Assembly: GCA_944323035.1 (NCBI GenBank)
Contig: CALUQY010000005.1
Location: 1-64,000 of the forward strand
From: Candidatus Gastranaerophilales bacterium
Lineage (GTDB): Bacteria; Cyanobacteriota; Vampirovibrionia; Gastranaerophilales; Gastranaerophilaceae
Direction: 5' to 3'
DNA length: 64,000 bases
Both the position numbers and the translations under genes were made by a program. Each line of letters starts with the position of its first letter. Position 1 is the stretch's first letter. The notes under the pieces were generated by a model. That model made no database searches and was not told where the DNA came from. It saw only the letters and a program-made list of their open reading frames with translations. Shown in pieces: positions 6,200 through 60,860 of this stretch.

Positions 6200-6265
6200 A
6201 AGGATAGAAAGATGAAAAAACGAAGTAATGTAAGTATTATGACGGGGGGGGGGGGGGCCGGCTGA
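6200..6265 (+). pseudogene. Orphan pilin leader with 14-G tract, no pilin body
   Basis: A ribosome site (AAAGGATAGAAAG) is followed by ATG at 6212 and the codons MKKRSNVSIMT, then 14 G (6244-6257) and an immediate stop (TGA 6263-6265) inside a CCGGCTGAGCCGG palindrome. This is the same start module as at 46218 (MKKQRSVKIMT plus 14 G), but no pilin reading frame follows: after about 320 bp of repeats comes folE2. It is best read as the front end of a pilin locus that lost its body, or a spare leader cassette. Confidence 0.65.
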
Positions 6266-6590
6266 GCCGGTTCTACGAAGTGAATGCGTGCTCACGGACA
6301 ACGTAAAATTTTTTGTCACCCTGAACTTGATTCAGGGTCTGTCCAGCGATGCGAGCTATCGGTAACGCCTGTCAGATTCCGAAACGGTCTTGCTCGACTC
6401 GCGAAAAACGGCACCGCGAAAAGCGTGGTTTTCGCTTAGTGCCTCCGCTCGCTCGCGCAGTTCGGAATGACATTAAAGGAAATACTGTCATTGCGAGGGG
6501 TCGCAGACCGCGTGGCTATCCGGTTGAGGATACGGCGTCTTTGCCTGGATCGCCACAGGCTTCTCCCTCGTAATGACATAGAAAGCAACA
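6258..6590 (+). repeat. Cluster of palindromic repeats
   Basis: No gene is seen here. Units recognised in order: CCGGCTGAGCCGG palindrome (6258-6270); an inverted pair GTCACCCTGAAC / TTCAGGGT (6316-6340); a complex palindromic element on the minus strand (about 6380-6470) with a GAGCGAGCGGAG arm and a CGCGAGTCGAGCAAGA arm; and units of the type TCATTGCGAG...CGTGGC-ATCC (6488-6525, and in reverse 6548-6577). The same units recur in the pilin loci at 46-58 kb. Confidence 0.7.
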
Positions 6591-6604
6591 TTTGCGCTCC
6601 TTTC

Positions 6605-12040: not shown

Positions 12041-12151
12041 GTTAATATGTTAAAGAGTTAATAAGTTAATAAGGGATATGACCGAAATAGACGAAAATAA
12101 ACCCGGGTTAAATTCCATAATCCTAATTAACTAATTAACTAATTAACATAT
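12041..12151 (+). repeat. Long inverted repeat of tandem TTAAT units in the pilin-type leader
   Basis: 5' arm (12041-12080) made of repeats of about 8 bases containing AGTTAATA, 3' arm (12113-12151) of the complementary CTAATTAA repeats. They can pair into a hairpin. The same architecture lies at 49911-50027. Confidence 0.65.
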
Positions 12152-12169
12152 GTCTAGCGATGTGAGCTA

Positions 12170-12350
12170 TCGGTAACGTTGGACAGATCCCGAACTAAAT
12201 TCGGGATGACACCGGCAGAGCCGAGCGCAGAGCGGCATCCCCGACTGGTTGAACATGACTTTTTAACGCCCAACCAATTAGGAAGCCGGTTTGACCGCCG
12301 GTGGATTGCCACACTCCCGTTGGTCGTTCAATGACGCCGGCGGTCGAGCC
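12170..12350. repeat. Palindromic repeat cluster replacing the front of a pilin gene
   Basis: Holds a GATCCCGAAC / TTCGGGATG pair (12189-12210), a GGATTGCCAC...CAATGACG unit (12302-12338) and GCCGGTTTGACCGGC-like palindromes. It occupies the place where leader and pilin N-terminus would be. Confidence 0.6.
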
Positions 12351-12575
12351 GGTCTGCCTTGTATATCTGTTTCTAATACAAAAGCCGTTGCGTTTGAAAC
12401 TGTTAATGACGAATCTGTGTTAGGATTTTACAATCCGTGTGGTGTTTCAAAAGATGTTCTTAGCAATGGCAGTGATGCTTACGGGAAACACTGGCGATTA
12501 TTCGGATGGACTATTGGGCTGAAATACGAGCTGCCTAAAAGTGATTCTTATTTTATCCAGTGTGTAAAACGTTAA
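12350..12575 (+). pseudogene. Pilin-like gene relic
   Basis: Only fragments of the pilin body remain: SNTKAVAFETVNDESVLGFYNPC (compare AAFETANGESI...FYNP in the others) and the C-terminal YFIQCVKR. The FTMAE helix, the NNIC block and the DLNGxKGPN block are absent. The open frame runs back to 12291 but enters repeat DNA, so the gene is broken by a large internal deletion. The pilin-type promoter and leader hairpin are still upstream. A hairpin AAAGAC...GTCTTTTT at 12582-12604 may end the transcript. Confidence 0.75.
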
Positions 12576-46079: not shown

Positions 46080-46190
46080 AAAAGAAAGGACCGGCGGTCG
46101 GCGCGCGAGCCGAGAGTGGAGTGCGTGACGCACGTAACTCGTTTTCGGCGAGTCGAGCAAGAAAAGCCGGTATCATAATTAGACAATGGC
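46080..46190 (+). repeat. Palindromic element in the locus A leader
   Basis: GCGCGAGCCGAGAGTGGAG arm, a GTGCGTGACGCAC hairpin, and a TTTTCGGCGAGTCGAGCAAGA arm (46102-46165); it separates the leader hairpin from the ribosome site. Same element type as at 6380-6470, 22859-22955 and 53755-53830. Confidence 0.65.
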
Positions 46191-46199
46191 GGGAAGCCA

Positions 46200-46292
46200 G
46201 AAAGGATAGAAGAACTTATGAAAAAACAGAGAAGTGTAAAGATTATGACGGGGGGGGGGGGGGCCGGCCTCATCCGCCCGATTAGGAATTGA
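46200..46292 (+). other. Pilin leader module with 14-G tract, locus A
   Basis: Ribosome site AAAGGATAGAAG, ATG 46218, codons MKKQRSVKIMT, 14 G (46250-46263), stop TGA at 46290-46292 in the present register. The pilin frame downstream is also closed by TGA 46372-46374, so no change in G number can join this leader to the pilin. Confidence 0.7.
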
Positions 46293-46446
46293 GGACACCT
46301 TAGCGTCATCACGAGGAGCGAACGAAAGAGAGCGACGTGGTGATCCAGTCAAAAACGTAGCGTTCTCAAGTTGATTGCCACGCTCCCGTTGGTCGCTCGC
46401 AATGACACCGACTGAGTCGGTTCTATGTTTGGTCAACAGGCTGTCG
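46264..46446 (+). repeat. Repeat DNA between G-tract and pilin, locus A
   Basis: Contains a TCATCACGAGGAGCG...CGACGTGGTGATCC unit (46308-46346), its reverse ATTGCCACGCTCCCG...CAATGACACC (46374-46409) and a CCGACTGAGTCGG palindrome (46408-46420). From 46402 to 46604 the sequence is identical to 50346-50548 of locus B. Confidence 0.75.
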
Positions 46447-47415
46447 GTCAAGAAATGTGCATTTACCATGGCTGAAATATTATTATCCCTGACGATAATC
46501 GGTGTGGTGGCTGCGATAACGCTTCCGAGCCTAACCGGAAATATCAATGAACGCACATGGAATACGCAAAGAAAAGCCCTTTATGCGCGCTTTAGTCAGG
46601 CAATAGCGCTCATGCCTGCATTAAATGGCTACGGAACACTCACCGAAGGAAACTCTTCAGCTTCTGCTGTCGATACTGCTGCCGAAACTTTCATAACCAG
46701 CGGGCTTTCAAAAGTTTTAAAAATTAACAATATTTGTGACAGTGAACACCTTGAGGATTGCGGAATTACCTCTGAATTTATTAATTTAACAGGCAGCAAA
46801 ATGTCTATGCCTGCAATGTTATCTGTGCTTAATTCAAGAATGACAAATATGTCTTTTGTTGATATTTTAGGCGGAAATTATTCATATTCGCAACTGGATA
46901 GCAAATCTGCTGCTTTTGAAACCCAAAATGGAGAAAGTATTAATCTCTTTTATAACCCGCATTGCGTTTCAAATATGAACGAAACGAAATCATTCTATTC
47001 GCAGAATAAATTTTGCGTTAATATGATTTATGATTTGAATGGTTTGAAAGGCCCGAATACTGTCGGCAAAGATATCGGATTTATTAGTGTGTTCTACCCG
47101 ACGGACAGCGTAGTTGTTGCACCGAATGTGTTTTTCAGGAATAATGCAAAGATTGCAGCAGGTGTAGAAGGGCGCTATGACCAGCTTCTTAAACTTTGTA
47201 CTGCTCAGGATAAAGATTTAAGGCTGCCGAATATTGACGAAGCAAACTCCATGTTTATCAATTCGGAGTTAATAGGGCTTGATGGTAATTCCTGGGCACT
47301 GGCGACATCATCTAAGATAGATTCTTCTTACCATTGGGAGATGAATTTTTCTACAGGAATGCGTGCAGTTGTTGATGATGAGCATACAGGTGGCTCTCGT
47401 TGTATTGGCAGGTAA
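46375..47415 (+). CDS. Pilin-like protein, locus A
   Basis: The mature protein begins at the prepilin site KKCA/FTMAEILLSL (Phe+1, Glu+5) at about 46448, followed by the hydrophobic N-terminal helix, the NINERTWNTQRKALYARFSQ stretch and a variable C-terminal domain with NNIC, CVNMIYDLNGLKGPNTVGKD and a closing CIGR. It is likely cleaved by a prepilin peptidase and assembled in a type IV pilus or pseudopilus. The true start is unclear: the open frame begins with TTG 46375; an ATG at 46403 would give an 18-residue basic leader (MTPTESVLC...SVKKCA), but neither has a ribosome site. It is convergent with ruvB. Confidence 0.75.
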   Translation: MPRSRWSLAMTPTESVLCLVNRLSVKKCAFTMAEILLSLTIIGVVAAITLPSLTGNINERTWNTQRKALYARFSQAIALMPALNGYGTLTEGNSSASAVDTAAETFITSGLSKVLKINNICDSEHLEDCGITSEFINLTGSKMSMPAMLSVLNSRMTNMSFVDILGGNYSYSQLDSKSAAFETQNGESINLFYNPHCVSNMNETKSFYSQNKFCVNMIYDLNGLKGPNTVGKDIGFISVFYPTDSVVVAPNVFFRNNAKIAAGVEGRYDQLLKLCTAQDKDLRLPNIDEANSMFINSELIGLDGNSWALATSSKIDSSYHWEMNFSTGMRAVVDDEHTGGSRCIGR

Positions 47416-51385: not shown

Positions 51386-53122
51386 TTATTTTGCCAGTGC
51401 TTTTTGAACTTCTGTTACAACTTTTTCGATTGCAGCCTCAGGCTTTAAATTTTCCATTTCGCCGGTTGAACGGGTTTTGAATTCTACAAGACCGTCCGCT
51501 ATCGTTTTCCCGACTGTAATTCTAAATGGGAAGCCGATTAAATCTGCATCTTTGAATTTAACCCCCGGTCTTTCGTCACGGTCGTCAATGACAGCTTCAA
51601 TTCCGGCTTTTAAAAGATTATTGTAAATCTCTTCTGCTACTTTCATCTGGGTTTCGTCTTTAACGCTTACCGGAATTACTATTGCATGATATGGCGCAAT
51701 TGCAATCGGCCATTTGATACCATGTTCATCGTTATGTGCTTCAACTGCCGCAGCTGCGGTTCTTGAAATCCCGATACCGTAGCAGCCCATAATATAAGGT
51801 TTGGTTTTGCCGTCTACATCTGCATAAACTGCATTCATCGGTTTTGAATATTTAGTTCCAAGCTTGAAGATGTTGCCGACTTCTATGCCTTTTGTAACGA
51901 AAAGCGGTTGACCGCATTGAGGGCAGAAATCCCCCTTTTCAACAAGTCTTATGTCTGTAACGATTTCCGGCATTTCAATATCAACTCCGAAATTCGCGCC
52001 GGCCATGTGTTTGTCTTTCCGGTTTACTCCGACAACAAAATTTTTCATCCCGCGAACGGTTTCATCGGCAACAATTGTTACATTTTTCATTCCGTTCGGT
52101 CCGATGAAGCCTTTTTCTGCATCAAATCCGTTTTGCTGCATTAATTCTTCAATTTCACCGGCAACGGCAATTCTGATATCATTAGCGCCGACGGCGTTCA
52201 TTAATTTTGTTTCCTCGACGGTTCTATCTGCGCGAATTAGTGCTAAAACAGGTTTTTTGTCCGCAATATAGACAAGAGTTTTTAATATTACGGTCGGCTC
52301 AATATTTAAAAATTCGCACAATTCCTCTATTGAATGCGTATTTGGCGTGTCAATAATTTCAGCTTTTTCCCATTTTCCGACAGTATTCACCGGAGGAAGT
52401 TTAGATATTGCATGGTTGGAGTTCGCGGAATAGTCGCAGGAATTGCAATAGAAAACATCATTTTCGCCGGCGTCACCGTCAGTGATTACCATAAATTCGT
52501 GCGAAACGCTTCCGCCGATTGCGCCTGAATCTGACTGAACCATTTTTGTATCAAGTCCGCAGCGTTTGAAAATTCTTGTGTAAGCGCGTGCCATATTTTG
52601 ATATTCTTTATCCAGTCCTTCTTCTGTTGTATCAAAACTGTAGGCGTCTTTCATAATAAATTCTCTGCCTCTCAAAAGTCCGTATCTCGGGCGTACTTCA
52701 TCGCGGAATTTGGACTGAATTTGATATAAGTTAACAGGCATTTGCTTGTAAGATTTTATGATATCGCGTGCAATTGAGGTGATGACCTCTTCGTGTGTTG
52801 GTCCAAGGCACATAACACGGTCGTGGCGGTCTTTAAGCCGCATAAGTTCTTTACCGTAAGCATCCCACCTGCCGGATTCCTGCCAGAGTTCCTGCGGCTG
52901 AACAAACGGCATTAAAAGTTCCTGCGCGCCTGCATCGTCCATTTCTTCGCGTACAATAGTTTCAACCTTTTTTAACACTCTCCACATAAGCGGTAAAAAG
53001 TTATATACACCGCTGGTGAGTTTTCTGATGTAGCCTGCGCGTGCAAGCATCTTATGTGAAATAACTTCCGCATCTGACGGAAATTCTCTCAAAGTTTGTA
53101 CGAATAATTTTGACATTTTCAT
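51386..53122 (-). CDS. proS: Prolyl-tRNA synthetase (bacterial type)
   Basis: 578-aa class II ProRS with the editing INS domain between motifs 2 and 3. Motif 2 KFRDEVRPRYGLLRGREFIMKDAYSF, INS domain (TVILKTLVYIADKKPVLALIRADRTVEE), motif 3 MGCYGIGISRTAAAAVEAH, then the anticodon domain. AGAGGA ribosome site supports the ATG at 53122. Single gene. Confidence 0.96.
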   Translation of the reverse strand: MKMSKLFVQTLREFPSDAEVISHKMLARAGYIRKLTSGVYNFLPLMWRVLKKVETIVREEMDDAGAQELLMPFVQPQELWQESGRWDAYGKELMRLKDRHDRVMCLGPTHEEVITSIARDIIKSYKQMPVNLYQIQSKFRDEVRPRYGLLRGREFIMKDAYSFDTTEEGLDKEYQNMARAYTRIFKRCGLDTKMVQSDSGAIGGSVSHEFMVITDGDAGENDVFYCNSCDYSANSNHAISKLPPVNTVGKWEKAEIIDTPNTHSIEELCEFLNIEPTVILKTLVYIADKKPVLALIRADRTVEETKLMNAVGANDIRIAVAGEIEELMQQNGFDAEKGFIGPNGMKNVTIVADETVRGMKNFVVGVNRKDKHMAGANFGVDIEMPEIVTDIRLVEKGDFCPQCGQPLFVTKGIEVGNIFKLGTKYSKPMNAVYADVDGKTKPYIMGCYGIGISRTAAAAVEAHNDEHGIKWPIAIAPYHAIVIPVSVKDETQMKVAEEIYNNLLKAGIEAVIDDRDERPGVKFKDADLIGFPFRITVGKTIADGLVEFKTRSTGEMENLKPEAAIEKVVTEVQKALAK

Positions 53123-53174
53123 AATGTGTATTCCTCTGTTTCTATTTTAATATTTTAATGTTAACACAAAAATA

Positions 53175-53203
53175 TTGACATAACCTAAAACATGTTACAT
53201 AAT
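53175..53203 (+). promoter_or_regulatory. Pilin-family promoter, locus C
   Basis: Consensus TTGACA (53175-53180), 17 bp, CATAAT (53198-53203). Confidence 0.7.
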
Positions 53204-53208
53204 GAAGA

Positions 53209-53310
53209 AGGCAATAAGGCAATAAGAGAATAAGGCAATAAGTCGTAATGACCGAATGGAAGAAAAATAGTCCTATTGCCATAATGCCCTATTGACCTAT
53301 TGCCTTATAA
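53209..53310 (+). repeat. Leader hairpin of tandem GGCAATAA units, locus C
   Basis: 5' arm (53209-53240) GGCAATAAGGCAATAAGAG-type, 3' arm (53270-53309) TCCTATTGCC...CCTATTGCCTTAT. Near-copy of the locus A leader. Confidence 0.65.
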
Positions 53311-53313
53311 CAA

Positions 53314-53375
53314 AGAAAGGATGGAAAGAATGAAAAACCGCAGGAATGTATTAACAAATGCAGGGGGGGGGGGGG
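53314..53375 (+). other. Pilin leader module with 13-G tract, locus C
   Basis: AAAGGATGGAAAG ribosome site, ATG 53330, codons MKNRRNVLTNA, 13 G (53363-53375), then a near stop. As at locus B, one G fewer or two more would put the ATG in frame with the pilin. Confidence 0.75.
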
Positions 53376-55127
53376 CCTCTCTTAACAGGCACAATTGAGG
53401 AGTCGAAAGCCTATAATTGTCATTCTGAACTCTGCTCGCTCGCGCAATTCGGGATGACACCGGCTGAGGCCGCAGAGCGGCATCCACAAAGCGACCCGAG
53501 TGGGAATTTAACGAAAGAAGTAAGCACGAAGGCCGAAAAGTATTTGTCATTGCGAGCCGACGAATGTCGGCGTGGCAATCCAGTCAAAAACGCCTCCCCC
53601 TCATGTCATTCCGAACTTGTTTCGGAATCTGTCCCACGTTACGAGCGGGTATCCAACGTTGGCCAGACCCTGAAACGAGTTCAGGGTGACAATATTTCGT
53701 CATTGCGAGCGGTCGGCGACCGCGCGGCAATCCATTCAACGTTGGTACTGCGCCTCGCGTTTTCTTGTTCGACTCGCGGAAAACGTGCCTACGTGCTTTC
53801 AGCACTCCGCACTCCGCTCGCTCACGCAAACGCTACCGCTCGCGCTTGCGGTCAAAAGCGTGCCGGCCAAGCCGGTCTTATAACGTCGCGTTCAGTCGCT
53901 ACAACGTATTGTGGATGTGCCTCAGGCACGCCGCGTCGCGCGCTCGACTCTACACAAGGCAAGCCTTGTTCTGTGGCTCTGCCCGGCTTGACCTTCACCA
54001 TGGCCGCCCGGCTGAGCCGCTCGACTGAGTCGAGAGCCATAAAGGGTTTATGTGCTTACGGACGACGAATAGCATTTACAATGGCCGCCCGGCTGAGCCG
54101 GTTCCATAATGGGTTGGTCGGCTTACGGTCAGCGTTCACAATGGCAGAGATATTATTATCCCTCACGATAATCGGTGTGGTTGCAGCGATAACGCTTCCG
54201 TCACTTACAGGCAACATTAATGAACGCACGTGGAACACGCAAAGAAAAGCACTTTATGCACGCTTCAGTCAGGCGATAGCCCTGATGCCCTCGTTAAATG
54301 GTTATGGAACTTATTCAGAAGAAACGGATTCTTCCGGTTCAATTTCTATAACAGATAATGTCGCGGAAACCTTTGTCACAGCAGGGCTTTCTAAAGTTCT
54401 AAAAATTAATAACATTTGTGATAGCGACCACATCCGGGATTGCGGTATAGCATCAAAAATTGTTTCACTAAAAGGCACTACTATCGAAACGGAAAATATT
54501 AAAGATCTACAGGGGTTAAATGGCAGCATGGTTGGAAGTATTGCTACTACTTCTACGATAAAGGCAGGCTATAACATAAATAATACAAAGGCTGCGGCCT
54601 TTGAAACTGCAAATGGTGAAAGTATTCTTGTCTATTATGTGCCTAATTGCGTTGGTAATATGAAGGAAACAACATTTACCGGTAATTCTGATACTGGCAG
54701 ATTTTATATTCAACAACGCGTATGTGCTAATTTTATCTTTGATTTGAACGGTAATAAAGGGCCGAACACTGTCGGCAAAGATATCGGGTTTATGACTGCG
54801 TTTTATCCTTATGATGCTCAATTAGCAGCACCATACCCTGCGATAAATTATGTAAACAATTTAGAAATTAATTCCGAAACTTTAACGACTGCACTGAAAT
54901 ATTGTAGTGAAACTTTTAATGGTGAATATCGTCTGGCGAAAATTGATGAATTGTCCTCTATGTTTGTAAATAATAAATTGATTGACGCTCAAAATATTGG
55001 TGGACATTTTGTTTCTTCAGATAAACAGCCGGAAAAATTAAATTCCATTTATCCGCGATATTCGCAATCTTTAACTAGCGGTGAACGCGAAGAAACCGGT
55101 GCTAGAGCGTGGTGTGTAAAACGCTAA
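53358..55127 (+). CDS. Pilin-like protein with very long in-frame repeat hinge, locus C
   Basis: 589-aa open frame beginning at ATG 53358. About 260 residues (Cys/Arg/Ser/Ala-rich, from repeat DNA) precede the prepilin site RSA/FTMAEILLSL at about 54137. The mature body carries NINERTWNTQRKALYARFSQ, NNICDSDHIRDCG, CANFIFDLNGNKGPNTVGKD and AWCVKR. That 770 bp of palindromic repeats stays open in exactly the pilin frame is unexpected by chance, as it is at locus B. Two copies of a PILIN-like TMAARLSR repeat occur within the hinge (around 54000 and 54080), with a third-order GCCGCCCGGCTGAGCC unit. Terminator not seen before the kinase gene. Confidence 0.7.
   Translation: MQGGGGPLLTGTIEESKAYNCHSELCSLAQFGMTPAEAAERHPQSDPSGNLTKEVSTKAEKYLSLRADECRRGNPVKNASPSCHSELVSESVPRYERVSNVGQTLKRVQGDNISSLRAVGDRAAIHSTLVLRLAFSCSTRGKRAYVLSALRTPLAHANATARACGQKRAGQAGLITSRSVATTYCGCASGTPRRALDSTQGKPCSVALPGLTFTMAARLSRSTESRAIKGLCAYGRRIAFTMAARLSRFHNGLVGLRSAFTMAEILLSLTIIGVVAAITLPSLTGNINERTWNTQRKALYARFSQAIALMPSLNGYGTYSEETDSSGSISITDNVAETFVTAGLSKVLKINNICDSDHIRDCGIASKIVSLKGTTIETENIKDLQGLNGSMVGSIATTSTIKAGYNINNTKAAAFETANGESILVYYVPNCVGNMKETTFTGNSDTGRFYIQQRVCANFIFDLNGNKGPNTVGKDIGFMTAFYPYDAQLAAPYPAINYVNNLEINSETLTTALKYCSETFNGEYRLAKIDELSSMFVNNKLIDAQNIGGHFVSSDKQPEKLNSIYPRYSQSLTSGEREETGARAWCVKR
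53376..54135 (+). repeat. Repeat hinge, locus C (about 760 bp)
   Basis: Starts like locus B (CCTCTCTTAACAGGCACAAT). Then TCATTGCGAGCCGACGAATG unit (53548-53585), TGTCATTCCGAAC / GTTTCGGAATC (53604-53632), CAGACCCTGAA / TTCAGGGTGACA (53666-53691), TCATTGCGAGCGGTCGGCGA unit (53699-53735), the complex element on the minus strand (53755-53830), and two GGCCGCCCGGCTGAGCC units (54001-54017, 54081-54098) each preceded by a degenerate TTCACCATGGC / TTTACAATGGC that mimics the pilin FTMA start. Confidence 0.75.
54136..54160 (+). other. Prepilin cleavage motif, locus C
   Basis: GCGTTCACAATGGCAGAG encodes A/FTMAE. The Ala codon marks the right-hand boundary of the inserted repeat DNA; the left boundary is the GCA (Ala) codon just before the G-tract at 53360. 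Confidence 0.6.
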
Positions 55128-55190: not shown

Positions 55191-55910
55191 ATGAGTGAGA
55201 ATTTTCAAGAGGATTTTATTTCAACTGTAAGCCACGAGCTTAGAACCCCTCTGACTTCTATCAGGGGGTTTTCTCAAACCATGCTTAATTCATGGGATAA
55301 GCTTGACGATGACAGCAAGAAAAAATTTCTGAAAATCATTGAGGAACAATCTAACCGTTTAATTCACCTTGTTGAAAATATGCTTGCCGTTACCAAACTA
55401 CAGGCCTGCCATGAAAAGTTTCTTTTAAAAGAGGTTCATCCGCGGCAAATTATTGATACTGTTGTTGCAATTGTCAGCAATCAGTACAAAAACAGAAAAT
55501 TTTTGATTAATCAGTATAAAAATCTGCCTTCAATTCTCGTTGATGAGGATAAATTTCAACAGGTAATGACTAATTTAATTGAAAATTCTGCAAAATATTC
55601 CTTTGAAAATACAACGATTACAGTTGATTTAACGCTTAAAGGTGATTTTGTTTCTATAAAAGTTTCAGATAACGGCTACGGCATTGACGAGAAAGATTAT
55701 AAAAAAATTTTTGAAAAGTTTTCACGGCTCGACAACCCGCTTACACGTCATGTGCAGGGCAACGGGCTGGGACTTTATATTACGAAAAATCTCGTTGATA
55801 AAATGAACGGGAAAATTTTTGTAACTTCAAAAGACAATTTGACTACCTTTGAAGTTCTTTTTCCGGTTTATAGTATTGAAAGGCAGGCGGGTTCTAAATG
55901 CATACAGTAA
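55191..55910 (+). CDS. Soluble sensor-less histidine kinase
   Basis: 239 aa: HisKA domain with H-box FISTVSHELRTPLTS near residue 16 and HATPase with N-box LIENSAKYS, G1 DNGYGIDEKDY and G2 GNGLGLYITKNLV. No input domain and no membrane helix precede the H-box, so signal input must come through a partner. It overlaps the next gene by 13 bp and is probably its cognate kinase. Leaderless start. Confidence 0.88.
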   Translation: MSENFQEDFISTVSHELRTPLTSIRGFSQTMLNSWDKLDDDSKKKFLKIIEEQSNRLIHLVENMLAVTKLQACHEKFLLKEVHPRQIIDTVVAIVSNQYKNRKFLINQYKNLPSILVDEDKFQQVMTNLIENSAKYSFENTTITVDLTLKGDFVSIKVSDNGYGIDEKDYKKIFEKFSRLDNPLTRHVQGNGLGLYITKNLVDKMNGKIFVTSKDNLTTFEVLFPVYSIERQAGSKCIQ

Positions 55911-60364: not shown

Positions 60365-60428
60365 TTTGGGAGCCGATGAATTTTGAGGTATGATTTTGTC
60401 GTACCCGGTTTTTATCGGCTTTTTTTTT
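60365..60428 (+). terminator. GAGCCGAT / ATCGGC hairpin with long T-run
   Basis: AGCCGAT (60371-60377) and ATCGGCT (60414-60420) followed by ten T. A promoter-like TATACTATAAG is at about 60345, so a small transcript of about 65 nt ending here is possible. Confidence 0.45.
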
Positions 60429-60430
60429 GT

Positions 60431-60607
60431 CCGAGAAAGACTCGCGCCCGGCTGAGTCGGAGCCATACTTGTATCAATCACTACCGAGAGCGTATGAACA
60501 AAAAGTGGCCACTCAGTGGCCGAGTCTTTTGAGTGGCGTATTAGAACGGCGTAGTCGCGGGTTGGCCTGCGTGAGCAGGGCAAGCAGGCGACGGAGAACT
60601 GCTTTAT
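60431..60607. repeat. Dispersed palindromic element, copy 2
   Basis: CCGAGAAAGACTCGCG at 60431-60446 and the GGGCAAGCAGGCGACGGAGA...CTGCTTTAT block at 60579-60607 match copy 1 (9976-10269); GAGTGGC-TATTAGA (60529-60545) also matches 10050-10065. The interior differs: CGGCTGAGTCGG and GGCCACTCAGTGGCC palindromes. Confidence 0.7.
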
Positions 60608-60648
60608 TCTATCCTCGGGAAAATGCTTTTTTACTCCTGCGGTTTCTC

Positions 60649-60677
60649 TTGAATATCTGTATATTATATGTTAAAAT
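60649..60677 (+). promoter_or_regulatory. Promoter TTGAAT-N17-TAAAAT of the RNA candidate
   Basis: -35 at 60649-60654, -10 at 60672-60677, spacer 17 bp. Predicted start near 60684. Confidence 0.55.
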
Positions 60678-60683
60678 ATTAGT

Positions 60684-60860
60684 GCTCAGTGCGGATGTTA
60701 ATTTTGTTCCTACATTATTTATAAACGGGAGAATTGACTCTGACGGGACTTGAAGTATACCCACCGATTGAAAAATCGCCAGTGGGAAACGGATTTTCCG
60801 AGGCGTTCACCCACCTGCGAGCCTAGCAGGTAACAAAATCGCGTCCGCTTTGGGCTTTTA
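60684..60860 (+). ncRNA. Structured small RNA candidate, about 175 nt
   Basis: No open frame. A closing stem joins GCGGATG...AATTTTGTT (60691-60708) with AACAAAATCGCGTCCGC (60832-60848). Inside: CCCAC-CGATT / AATCG-GTGGG (60760-60786), GGAAA / TTTCC (60784-60798) and ACCTGC / GCAGGT (60813-60831). Length, own promoter and long closing stem recall 6S RNA, but the branched interior does not fit it well; class uncertain. Confidence 0.5.

Follow-up and report, generated by a model that had tools for sequence, protein, structure and literature searches.

How can 759 nt of palindromic repeats stay free of stop codons in the frame of the pilin gene that follows them, and what becomes of the peptide that they encode? 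This question is raised by locus C, one of four pilin loci in the window (the whole 64,000-nt stretch of DNA analysed here, part of contig C5 of a 1.94-Mb genome in 41 contigs). Locus C is flanked by proS on the minus strand (51386-53122) and by a histidine kinase gene (55191-55910), both named from our reading of the open reading frames, and all of its own features lie on the plus strand. A promoter-like region (53130..53203; TTGACATAACCTAAAACATGTTACATAATG) contains a consensus match, TTGACA...TACATAAT, and the promoter-like motif ACATGnTACATA is found upstream of 23 of the 93 pilin starts of the genome. There follows a 5' untranslated stretch (53204..53308) with AATAAGGCAATAAG repeats and inverted copies (D2, I1, I2 and I4 of our repeat search). 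The leader starts at ATG 53330 behind a Shine-Dalgarno-like AAAGGATGG and spans 33 nt (53330..53362, MKNRRNVLTNA); leaders like it recur at the 64 loci that were parsed in the genome. Next come 13 G residues (53363..53375), which form a candidate slippage switch, and then the hinge (53376-54134). Its first segment, PLLTG (53376..53390), also opens other hinges of the genome (23 of 64 in all) and is the counterpart of a five-residue short leader end (LLTA/LLTG) in relatives. The remainder (53391..54134) is made up of palindromic repeat modules that have been inserted there; it is open in the pilin frame and includes relic FTMA sites at 53994 and 54075. A predicted prepilin-peptidase cut between Ala and Phe (GCG-TTC, 54132..54137) would release a mature pilin of 330 residues (54135..55127, with the stop ending at 55127), which starts with Phe and comprises an N-terminal helix and a C-terminal domain resembling Lcl and C-type lectins.

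As assembled, leader, G run and hinge together measure 1 mod 3, and with the present number of G residues the leader and the pilin are in different frames: translation from ATG 53330 yields MKNRRNVLTNAGGGGASLNRHN and then stops. Locus C is thus OFF by one G in excess, and the initial annotation was right that its leader ATG requires one G less or two extra. If switched ON, the leader would comprise ~268 residues, the longest among the 64 parsed loci (median 99).

We compared the open frame of the locus C hinge with shuffled versions of the same sequence. As had been pointed out in the initial annotation, the hinge lacks stops in the pilin frame and carries them in the others: we count 0 against 7 and 11 in the other forward frames, and 12, 7 and 9 in the reverse frames. 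Dinucleotide shuffling left the pilin frame open in 14 of 20000 trials, shuffling of blocks of 20-80 nt in 42 of 20000, and the same with random flips in 6 of 20000. Open frames of this length are thus rare among shuffles, which does not count against the selection for an open, translated hinge that the initial annotation had proposed.

We extended the analysis to the pilin family. A search with the first 60 pilin residues returned 100 matches in the genome of the window. The 92 stretches fetched, together with the window, hold 93 distinct pilin starts, 64 of which were parsed into leader, G tract and hinge; excluded were one start without a leader at a contig end (L119) and 28 with no G run of at least 7 inside 900 nt, these being contig ends, plain short leaders and decayed copies. 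Hinges range from 12 to 759 nt, and stops were counted in those of at least 60 nt, which are 60 of the 64. Many contigs of this genome start or end within pilin loci; the family thus fragments the assembly, and its copy number is approximate. Six other genomes of the same genus contain 20-125 matches to the pilin N-terminus. The 80 loci retrieved from relatives are the best 80 of 462 matches, a non-random sample, and 56 of them could be parsed with a G tract. The best named pilin relatives are found in Candidatus Gastranaerophilales/Melainabacteria bins, including Ca. Gastranaerophilus phascolarctosicola, and in one bin labelled Fusobacterium. That record (JAMPIJ01, Fusobacterium sp.; L160, L163, L164 and other loci) contains this Gastranaerophilales family of pilins together with a kinase that shares 92% identity with that of the window, and its label looks wrong.

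Across the genome, the pilin frame is open in 57 of 60 hinges and each of the other forward frames in none, with 7 stops in 5960 pilin-frame codons against 343 and 313; these hinges are related by descent, have modules in common and are not independent observations. Hinge length is 0 mod 3 at 58 of the 64 parsed loci. Among the best 80 of 462 matches from relatives, the pilin frame is open at 54 of the 56 loci with a G tract and, for hinges of at least 60 nt, at 39 of 41, with 0 of 41 and 1 of 41 open in the other forward frames. The nearest sampled relative is stop-free in eight of eight orthologous hinge pairs, and the check for stops in homologues likewise does not count against the proposal. 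The open frame of the hinge is under selection, since it is open at 57 of 60 loci against none in the other frames and is rarely open in shuffles, and this conclusion is supported far more strongly than it could be from one locus. Chance openness was set aside on the same grounds.

Repeat copies without a pilin behind them provide natural controls: those at 6258-6595 and 12147-12352 contain stops in six of six frames. A third copy (46101-46162) is stopped in one of six frames and is, at only 62 nt, too short to be informative. The hinge modules occur in either orientation (559 of 1836 matches) and differ in frame (130 of 1277 same-strand matches), and nevertheless remain open. The three own-genome hinges that are not open comprise one that is shifted (L055), one in front of a broken body (L126) and that of locus A, where a single in-frame stop in the hinge (window 46264-46461) precedes an intact pilin body. 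At 6211-6595, the window contains a leader, a G14 tract and a hinge with no pilin behind them and with every frame stopped; we regard this as a dead locus.

We assigned a frame state to each parsed locus. By the G counts of a fragmented and possibly biased assembly, the leader is one nucleotide too long at 46 of the 64 loci (state 1), in frame at 13 (ON) and in the third state at 5 (state 2); one locus (L051) is scored as state 2 by the first of two overlapping ATGs, and the second would place it in state 1, for totals of 47, 13 and 4. The in-frame loci run stop-free from ATG to FTMAE in 13 of 13 cases. State 1 is reached by leaders of 0 mod 3 with G13 (30 loci), of 1 mod 3 with G12 (9) and of 2 mod 3 with G14 (4), and the body measures at least 290 residues at 41 of the 46 state-1 loci. 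At 29 of these 46, the sequence before the hinge has no ATG, GTG or TTG in the pilin frame; expression from the leader therefore needs an altered number of G residues or slippage. An alternative ATG-CAG start before the G tract was rejected as a general solution, as it occurs at 17 of the 46 and is missing from 29. With respect to a homopolymer of at least 9 nt in a coding region and a reading that depends on frame, locus C has its G13 tract and 13 of the 64 loci are ON. A leader with the sequence MRNRRVNILS and matching flanks is followed by G12 in one genome (L155) and by G13 in another (L114), being ON with G12 and OFF with G13; this is one clear pair, from different species. Among the best 80 of 462 matches from relatives, states 1, 0 and 2 number 16, 4 and 5 in CALVBO, and JAMPIJ and MOYE are mainly in state 2 (L187 has the same overlapping-ATG ambiguity as L051). 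That silent genes retain conserved bodies and open leaders agrees with reversible phase variation, as far as sequences can indicate. The dominance of state 1 (46/64) departs from an even spread and is not predicted by simple neutral slippage; OFF may be the usual state, one deletion away from ON, or transcriptional slippage may matter.

An intragenic G tract is found outside the pilins as well. On the minus strand of C1:36500-45500 of the same genome (L231) there are three more genes with G13-G14, the G runs being at locus positions 1495, 3310 and 6180. These genes share similar N-terminal parts, and the G-tract switch thus extends beyond pilins. Their products look like cell-surface SGNH/AlgJ-type acetyltransferases.

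We next consider the fate of the hinge peptide. Prepilin leaders are cytoplasmic, end in Gly or Ala and are cleaved on the cytoplasmic side of the membrane (PMC10191384). In all 93 pilin starts of the genome the residue directly ahead of FTMAE is Ala (82) or Gly (11), and Phe1 and Glu5 are invariant among 39 aligned mature pilins. The prepilin N-terminal model TIGR02532 scores 16.5-18.2 bits in four of four window pilins, above its cut-off of 16.3; Pfam N_methyl stays below its cut-off in the same four. Profile matches above cut-off in the genome include one prepilin peptidase (PF01478) and four members of the assembly-ATPase family (PF00437). A transmembrane-like stretch is absent from 59 of 60 hinges, and 48 of 60 have a net positive charge. 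Because the conserved cut site is located C-terminal to it, the most plausible reading of the locus C hinge is as a leader peptide in the cytoplasm that is predicted to be cleaved away. At ~268 residues, such a leader would lie far beyond the 6-51 residues given for described type IV prepilin leaders in the available text of PMC6916266, which is a reported range and not a definition.

Codon positions in hinge and body point in the same direction. Between paralogous hinges the mismatch rates at positions 1, 2 and 3 are.089,.108 and.128, against.132,.032 and.489 in the first 54 mature codons and.122,.068 and.440 in the remaining body. Orthologous loci were compared in eight pairs, the remaining pairs aligning poorly because modules or bodies differ. 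Five well-aligned hinges have 19/452, 20/451 and 18/450 mismatches to the nearest sampled relative by codon position; four well-aligned bodies have 46, 23 and 234 per 1296 each. The hinges keep a weak trend, with position 3 above position 1. As mismatches are spread almost evenly over codon positions in the hinge and skewed in the body, the frame is kept while the hinge peptide looks nearly free to change, and the mature pilin is conserved.

We propose that locus C, OFF as assembled, probably belongs to a very large family of type IV pilin-like adhesins with lectin heads, dispersed over the genome and phase-variable through poly-G tracts, whose leaders collect palindromic modules in frame. Slippage in the G tract at replication would shift the leader ATG into or out of the pilin frame, and as this would happen locus by locus, each could be switched ON and OFF independently. 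Palindromic modules would insert behind the G tract, ahead of the prepilin-peptidase site. An insertion that breaks the frame would kill the gene and be lost; one that keeps it would be tolerated, since cleavage by prepilin peptidase follows the last Ala or Gly and the hinge is left in the cytoplasm. Selection would keep the frame open for expression of the pilin when ON, and not for the hinge peptide.

We weighed this proposal against other explanations. The +1 arrangement could itself be expressed through slippage of RNA polymerase or the ribosome on G13, providing a low and steady amount of pilin with no switch in the DNA. It would suit this idea that the +1 state is common to three leader-length classes and that open hinges and conserved bodies persist there; it is at odds with the 13 loci that are exactly in frame and with the preference of other species for other states, and the nine G12 loci represent one leader family, perhaps by shared descent. 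We thus consider expression by slippage to be unlikely. The leader palindromes could alternatively form mRNA hairpins that tune expression, with the modules kept for RNA structure and the frame for translation. Here, the initial annotation had counted at least seven palindromic units. We do find eight inverted-repeat pairs within the locus C hinge (8-16 nt, 75-100% complementary), several of them with arms 70-76 nt apart. Perfect hairpin arms in this hinge are not in excess of shuffles, with two of arm length 8 (reached by 8 of 60 shuffles) and none of arm length 9; palindromes can therefore be claimed only as imperfect pairs, and their number depends on the definition used. In favour of a role for RNA, the region folds more stably than 20 of 20 shuffles (z -4.5), and the repeat core TCATTGCGAGC has 62 copies in the genome, of which 45 are found in the 800 nt that precede a pilin start, zones that make up ~4% of the genome. 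Against it, hinges vary widely in length and composition, there are differences between orthologous loci, some forms in relatives measure only 15 nt, and an Rfam search of 53100-54300 yielded zero matches. Tuning by RNA structure accordingly appears doubtful to us as the reason why the modules are kept.

Could the hinge be left untranslated altogether, with the pilin beginning at an internal ATG, GTG or TTG near FTMAE and the openness inherited from a few founder modules? Some repeats do contain an ATG closely ahead of FTMAE (GMTKNAA before the FTMAE), and modules are common to several loci. As 57 of 60 hinges are open over their whole length from the G tract onwards, modules occur in several frames and orientations, and copies lacking a pilin are rich in stops, we regard an internal start as very unlikely. 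The hinge would be translated in frame with the pilin whenever the leader is in frame, and the initial annotation envisaged it as a surface spacer retained on the mature pilin after unusual leader processing. We found this to be at odds with the Ala/Gly-FTMAE cut at 93 of 93 starts, with the invariant Glu5, with the nearly unconstrained hinge codons and with the 59 of 60 hinges without a hydrophobic stretch, and a retained spacer is very unlikely. An assembly artefact, in which repeats and G tracts have been mis-joined in a metagenome bin, is similarly remote: many contigs end inside pilin loci, G tracts assemble poorly and MOYE loci have N next to the tract, but the same anatomy is seen in five other assemblies, and mis-joins would not preserve the frame in 57 of 60 hinges.

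The probable phase-variable family outlined above also contains forms that bear on how long leaders may arise. In relatives, we find a short form with MNKKNVLPCT, GGGG and RLLTA directly ahead of FTMAE, in which 15 nt separate the G tract from the pilin start. Locus C retains the end of the short form as PLLTG, with the modules placed after it. Relic starts (TTYACnATGGC) are present in the hinges of 17 of the 93 loci; there are 18, spaced at 60, 81 or 84 nt, and 18 of 18 are in frame, in a search confined to the upstream stretch open in the pilin frame, from which frame-breaking relics would escape. Because of these in-frame relics and the position of 45 of 62 core copies upstream of pilin starts, we tentatively raise the possibility that the pilin start is a self-renewing landing site: incoming modules would bring their own A-FTMA, a copy of the cleavage site with the first four codons of the mature pilin; the old start would become leader, a functional start would be restored behind it, the leader would grow by whole codons, and palindromic elements would be steered there.

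Leader, hinge and body do not always share one history. At one orthologous locus the hinges differ by 1 mismatch in 213 nt and the bodies are only 63% identical; at another the bodies are 92% and the hinges 56% identical. Such discordance at matching flanks suggests that the parts have separate histories, with recombination among loci. In the gap between proS and the kinase gene, the pilin is absent from four of five relatives and present in one (G005), with a much shorter hinge. One relative (G001, L220) has a promoter-like scar, TTGACATATAATG, at the place of locus C in this gap, which suggests loss of a pilin. We considered dating the locus C insertion by the empty site; with the scar in one genome and the pilin in another, gain and loss are both possible, and no direction was drawn. 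Another, longer dispersed repeat (...EPYLYQSLPRAYE...WPSLLSG...) interrupts pilin loci at L137, L138, L232 and at 60427-60753 of the window.

We modelled the mature locus C pilin. The model has a mean pLDDT of 83 and contains a long N-terminal helix. The best structural match of its C-terminal part is the C-terminal domain of Legionella Lcl (PDB 8q4e; Z 9.8, 114 residues, rmsd 4.6); intimin/invasin and C-type lectin domains come next, with Z below 8. VIA-align rows for the mature pilin mostly span residues 211-330 only, a Foldseek search of the PDB with the model gave no match at E <= 0.001, and Pfam Lcl_C matches locus B weakly, below its cut-off. The structural alignment is the one usable lead here, and it leaves room for a pilin fold. 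The pilin may have an adhesive role. The Lcl-like domain is here carried by a type IV pilin-like helix, whereas in Legionella Lcl it belongs to a collagen-like adhesin.

We compared the family with known systems. In Bifidobacterium breve, G-tract switching of sortase pili has been shown experimentally, and in-frame derivatives made pili (PMC9187656). As in locus C, the B. breve tract lies between a signal-peptide part and the pilin body, in a gut bacterium, and is OFF in the reference; the sortase pilin has an apparent downstream start without a Shine-Dalgarno sequence (PMC9187656). As far as the available text of PMC9187656 goes, B. breve differs in having sortase pili, two clusters and no repeat-built leader, whereas we find type IV pilin-like proteins, tens of G-tract loci and an extended leader. 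Among the poly-G/C phase-variable genes of Neisseria, the pilus gene pilC likewise contains a G/C tract (9-20) within the gene; about 15-19 poly-G tracts are reported per Neisseria genome, in various genes (PMC5953494), against at least 64 in one paralogous family here. Rickettsia palindromic elements (RPE) are another parallel, as palindromic repeats in frame within coding genes that survive, but they insert into metabolic genes that are unrelated to one another and remain part of the protein (PMC10969869, in the part available), whereas the modules described here collect in the leader of one family. The likeness is one of description: RPE are recognised by unrelated host genes and a conserved peptide, and our core copies lie mostly upstream of a single family (45 of 62), in several frames and both orientations.

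In pilE/pilS-type variation, one expression locus is fed by silent, promoterless copies. Our pilin bodies, too, are apparently swapped between loci by recombination; unlike pilE/pilS, however, each of 64 loci possesses a leader ATG and a ribosome-binding-like site of its own, and 23 of 93 have the shared promoter-like motif. Antigenic variation of Neisseria pilE/pilS is mentioned in PMC5953494. In the Melainabacteria/Gastranaerophilales literature searched, which covers subscription journals little and includes PMC5877343 in its available part, we found no report of such a switch or pilin family. The ingredients, namely G-tract switches, in-frame palindromic elements and pilin recombination, are known elsewhere; their combination, its scale, the place of insertion and the length of the leader appear to be new.

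If our reading is correct, an uncultured gut lineage related to Cyanobacteria would carry, within 1.9 Mb, ~100 pilin-like copies, of which no fewer than 64 have a G tract, with prepilin leaders far exceeding the lengths reviewed in the accessible part of PMC6916266. Gene callers will mis-set the starts of such genes, and databases are therefore likely to hold fragments or false N-termini. The hinges would constitute a natural experiment, in which coding DNA is selected for its frame alone and its amino acids are nearly free. The family would represent one of the largest single-family phase-variable surface repertoires known to us, and a switchable pilin repertoire of this kind could account for the persistence of these bacteria in their hosts.
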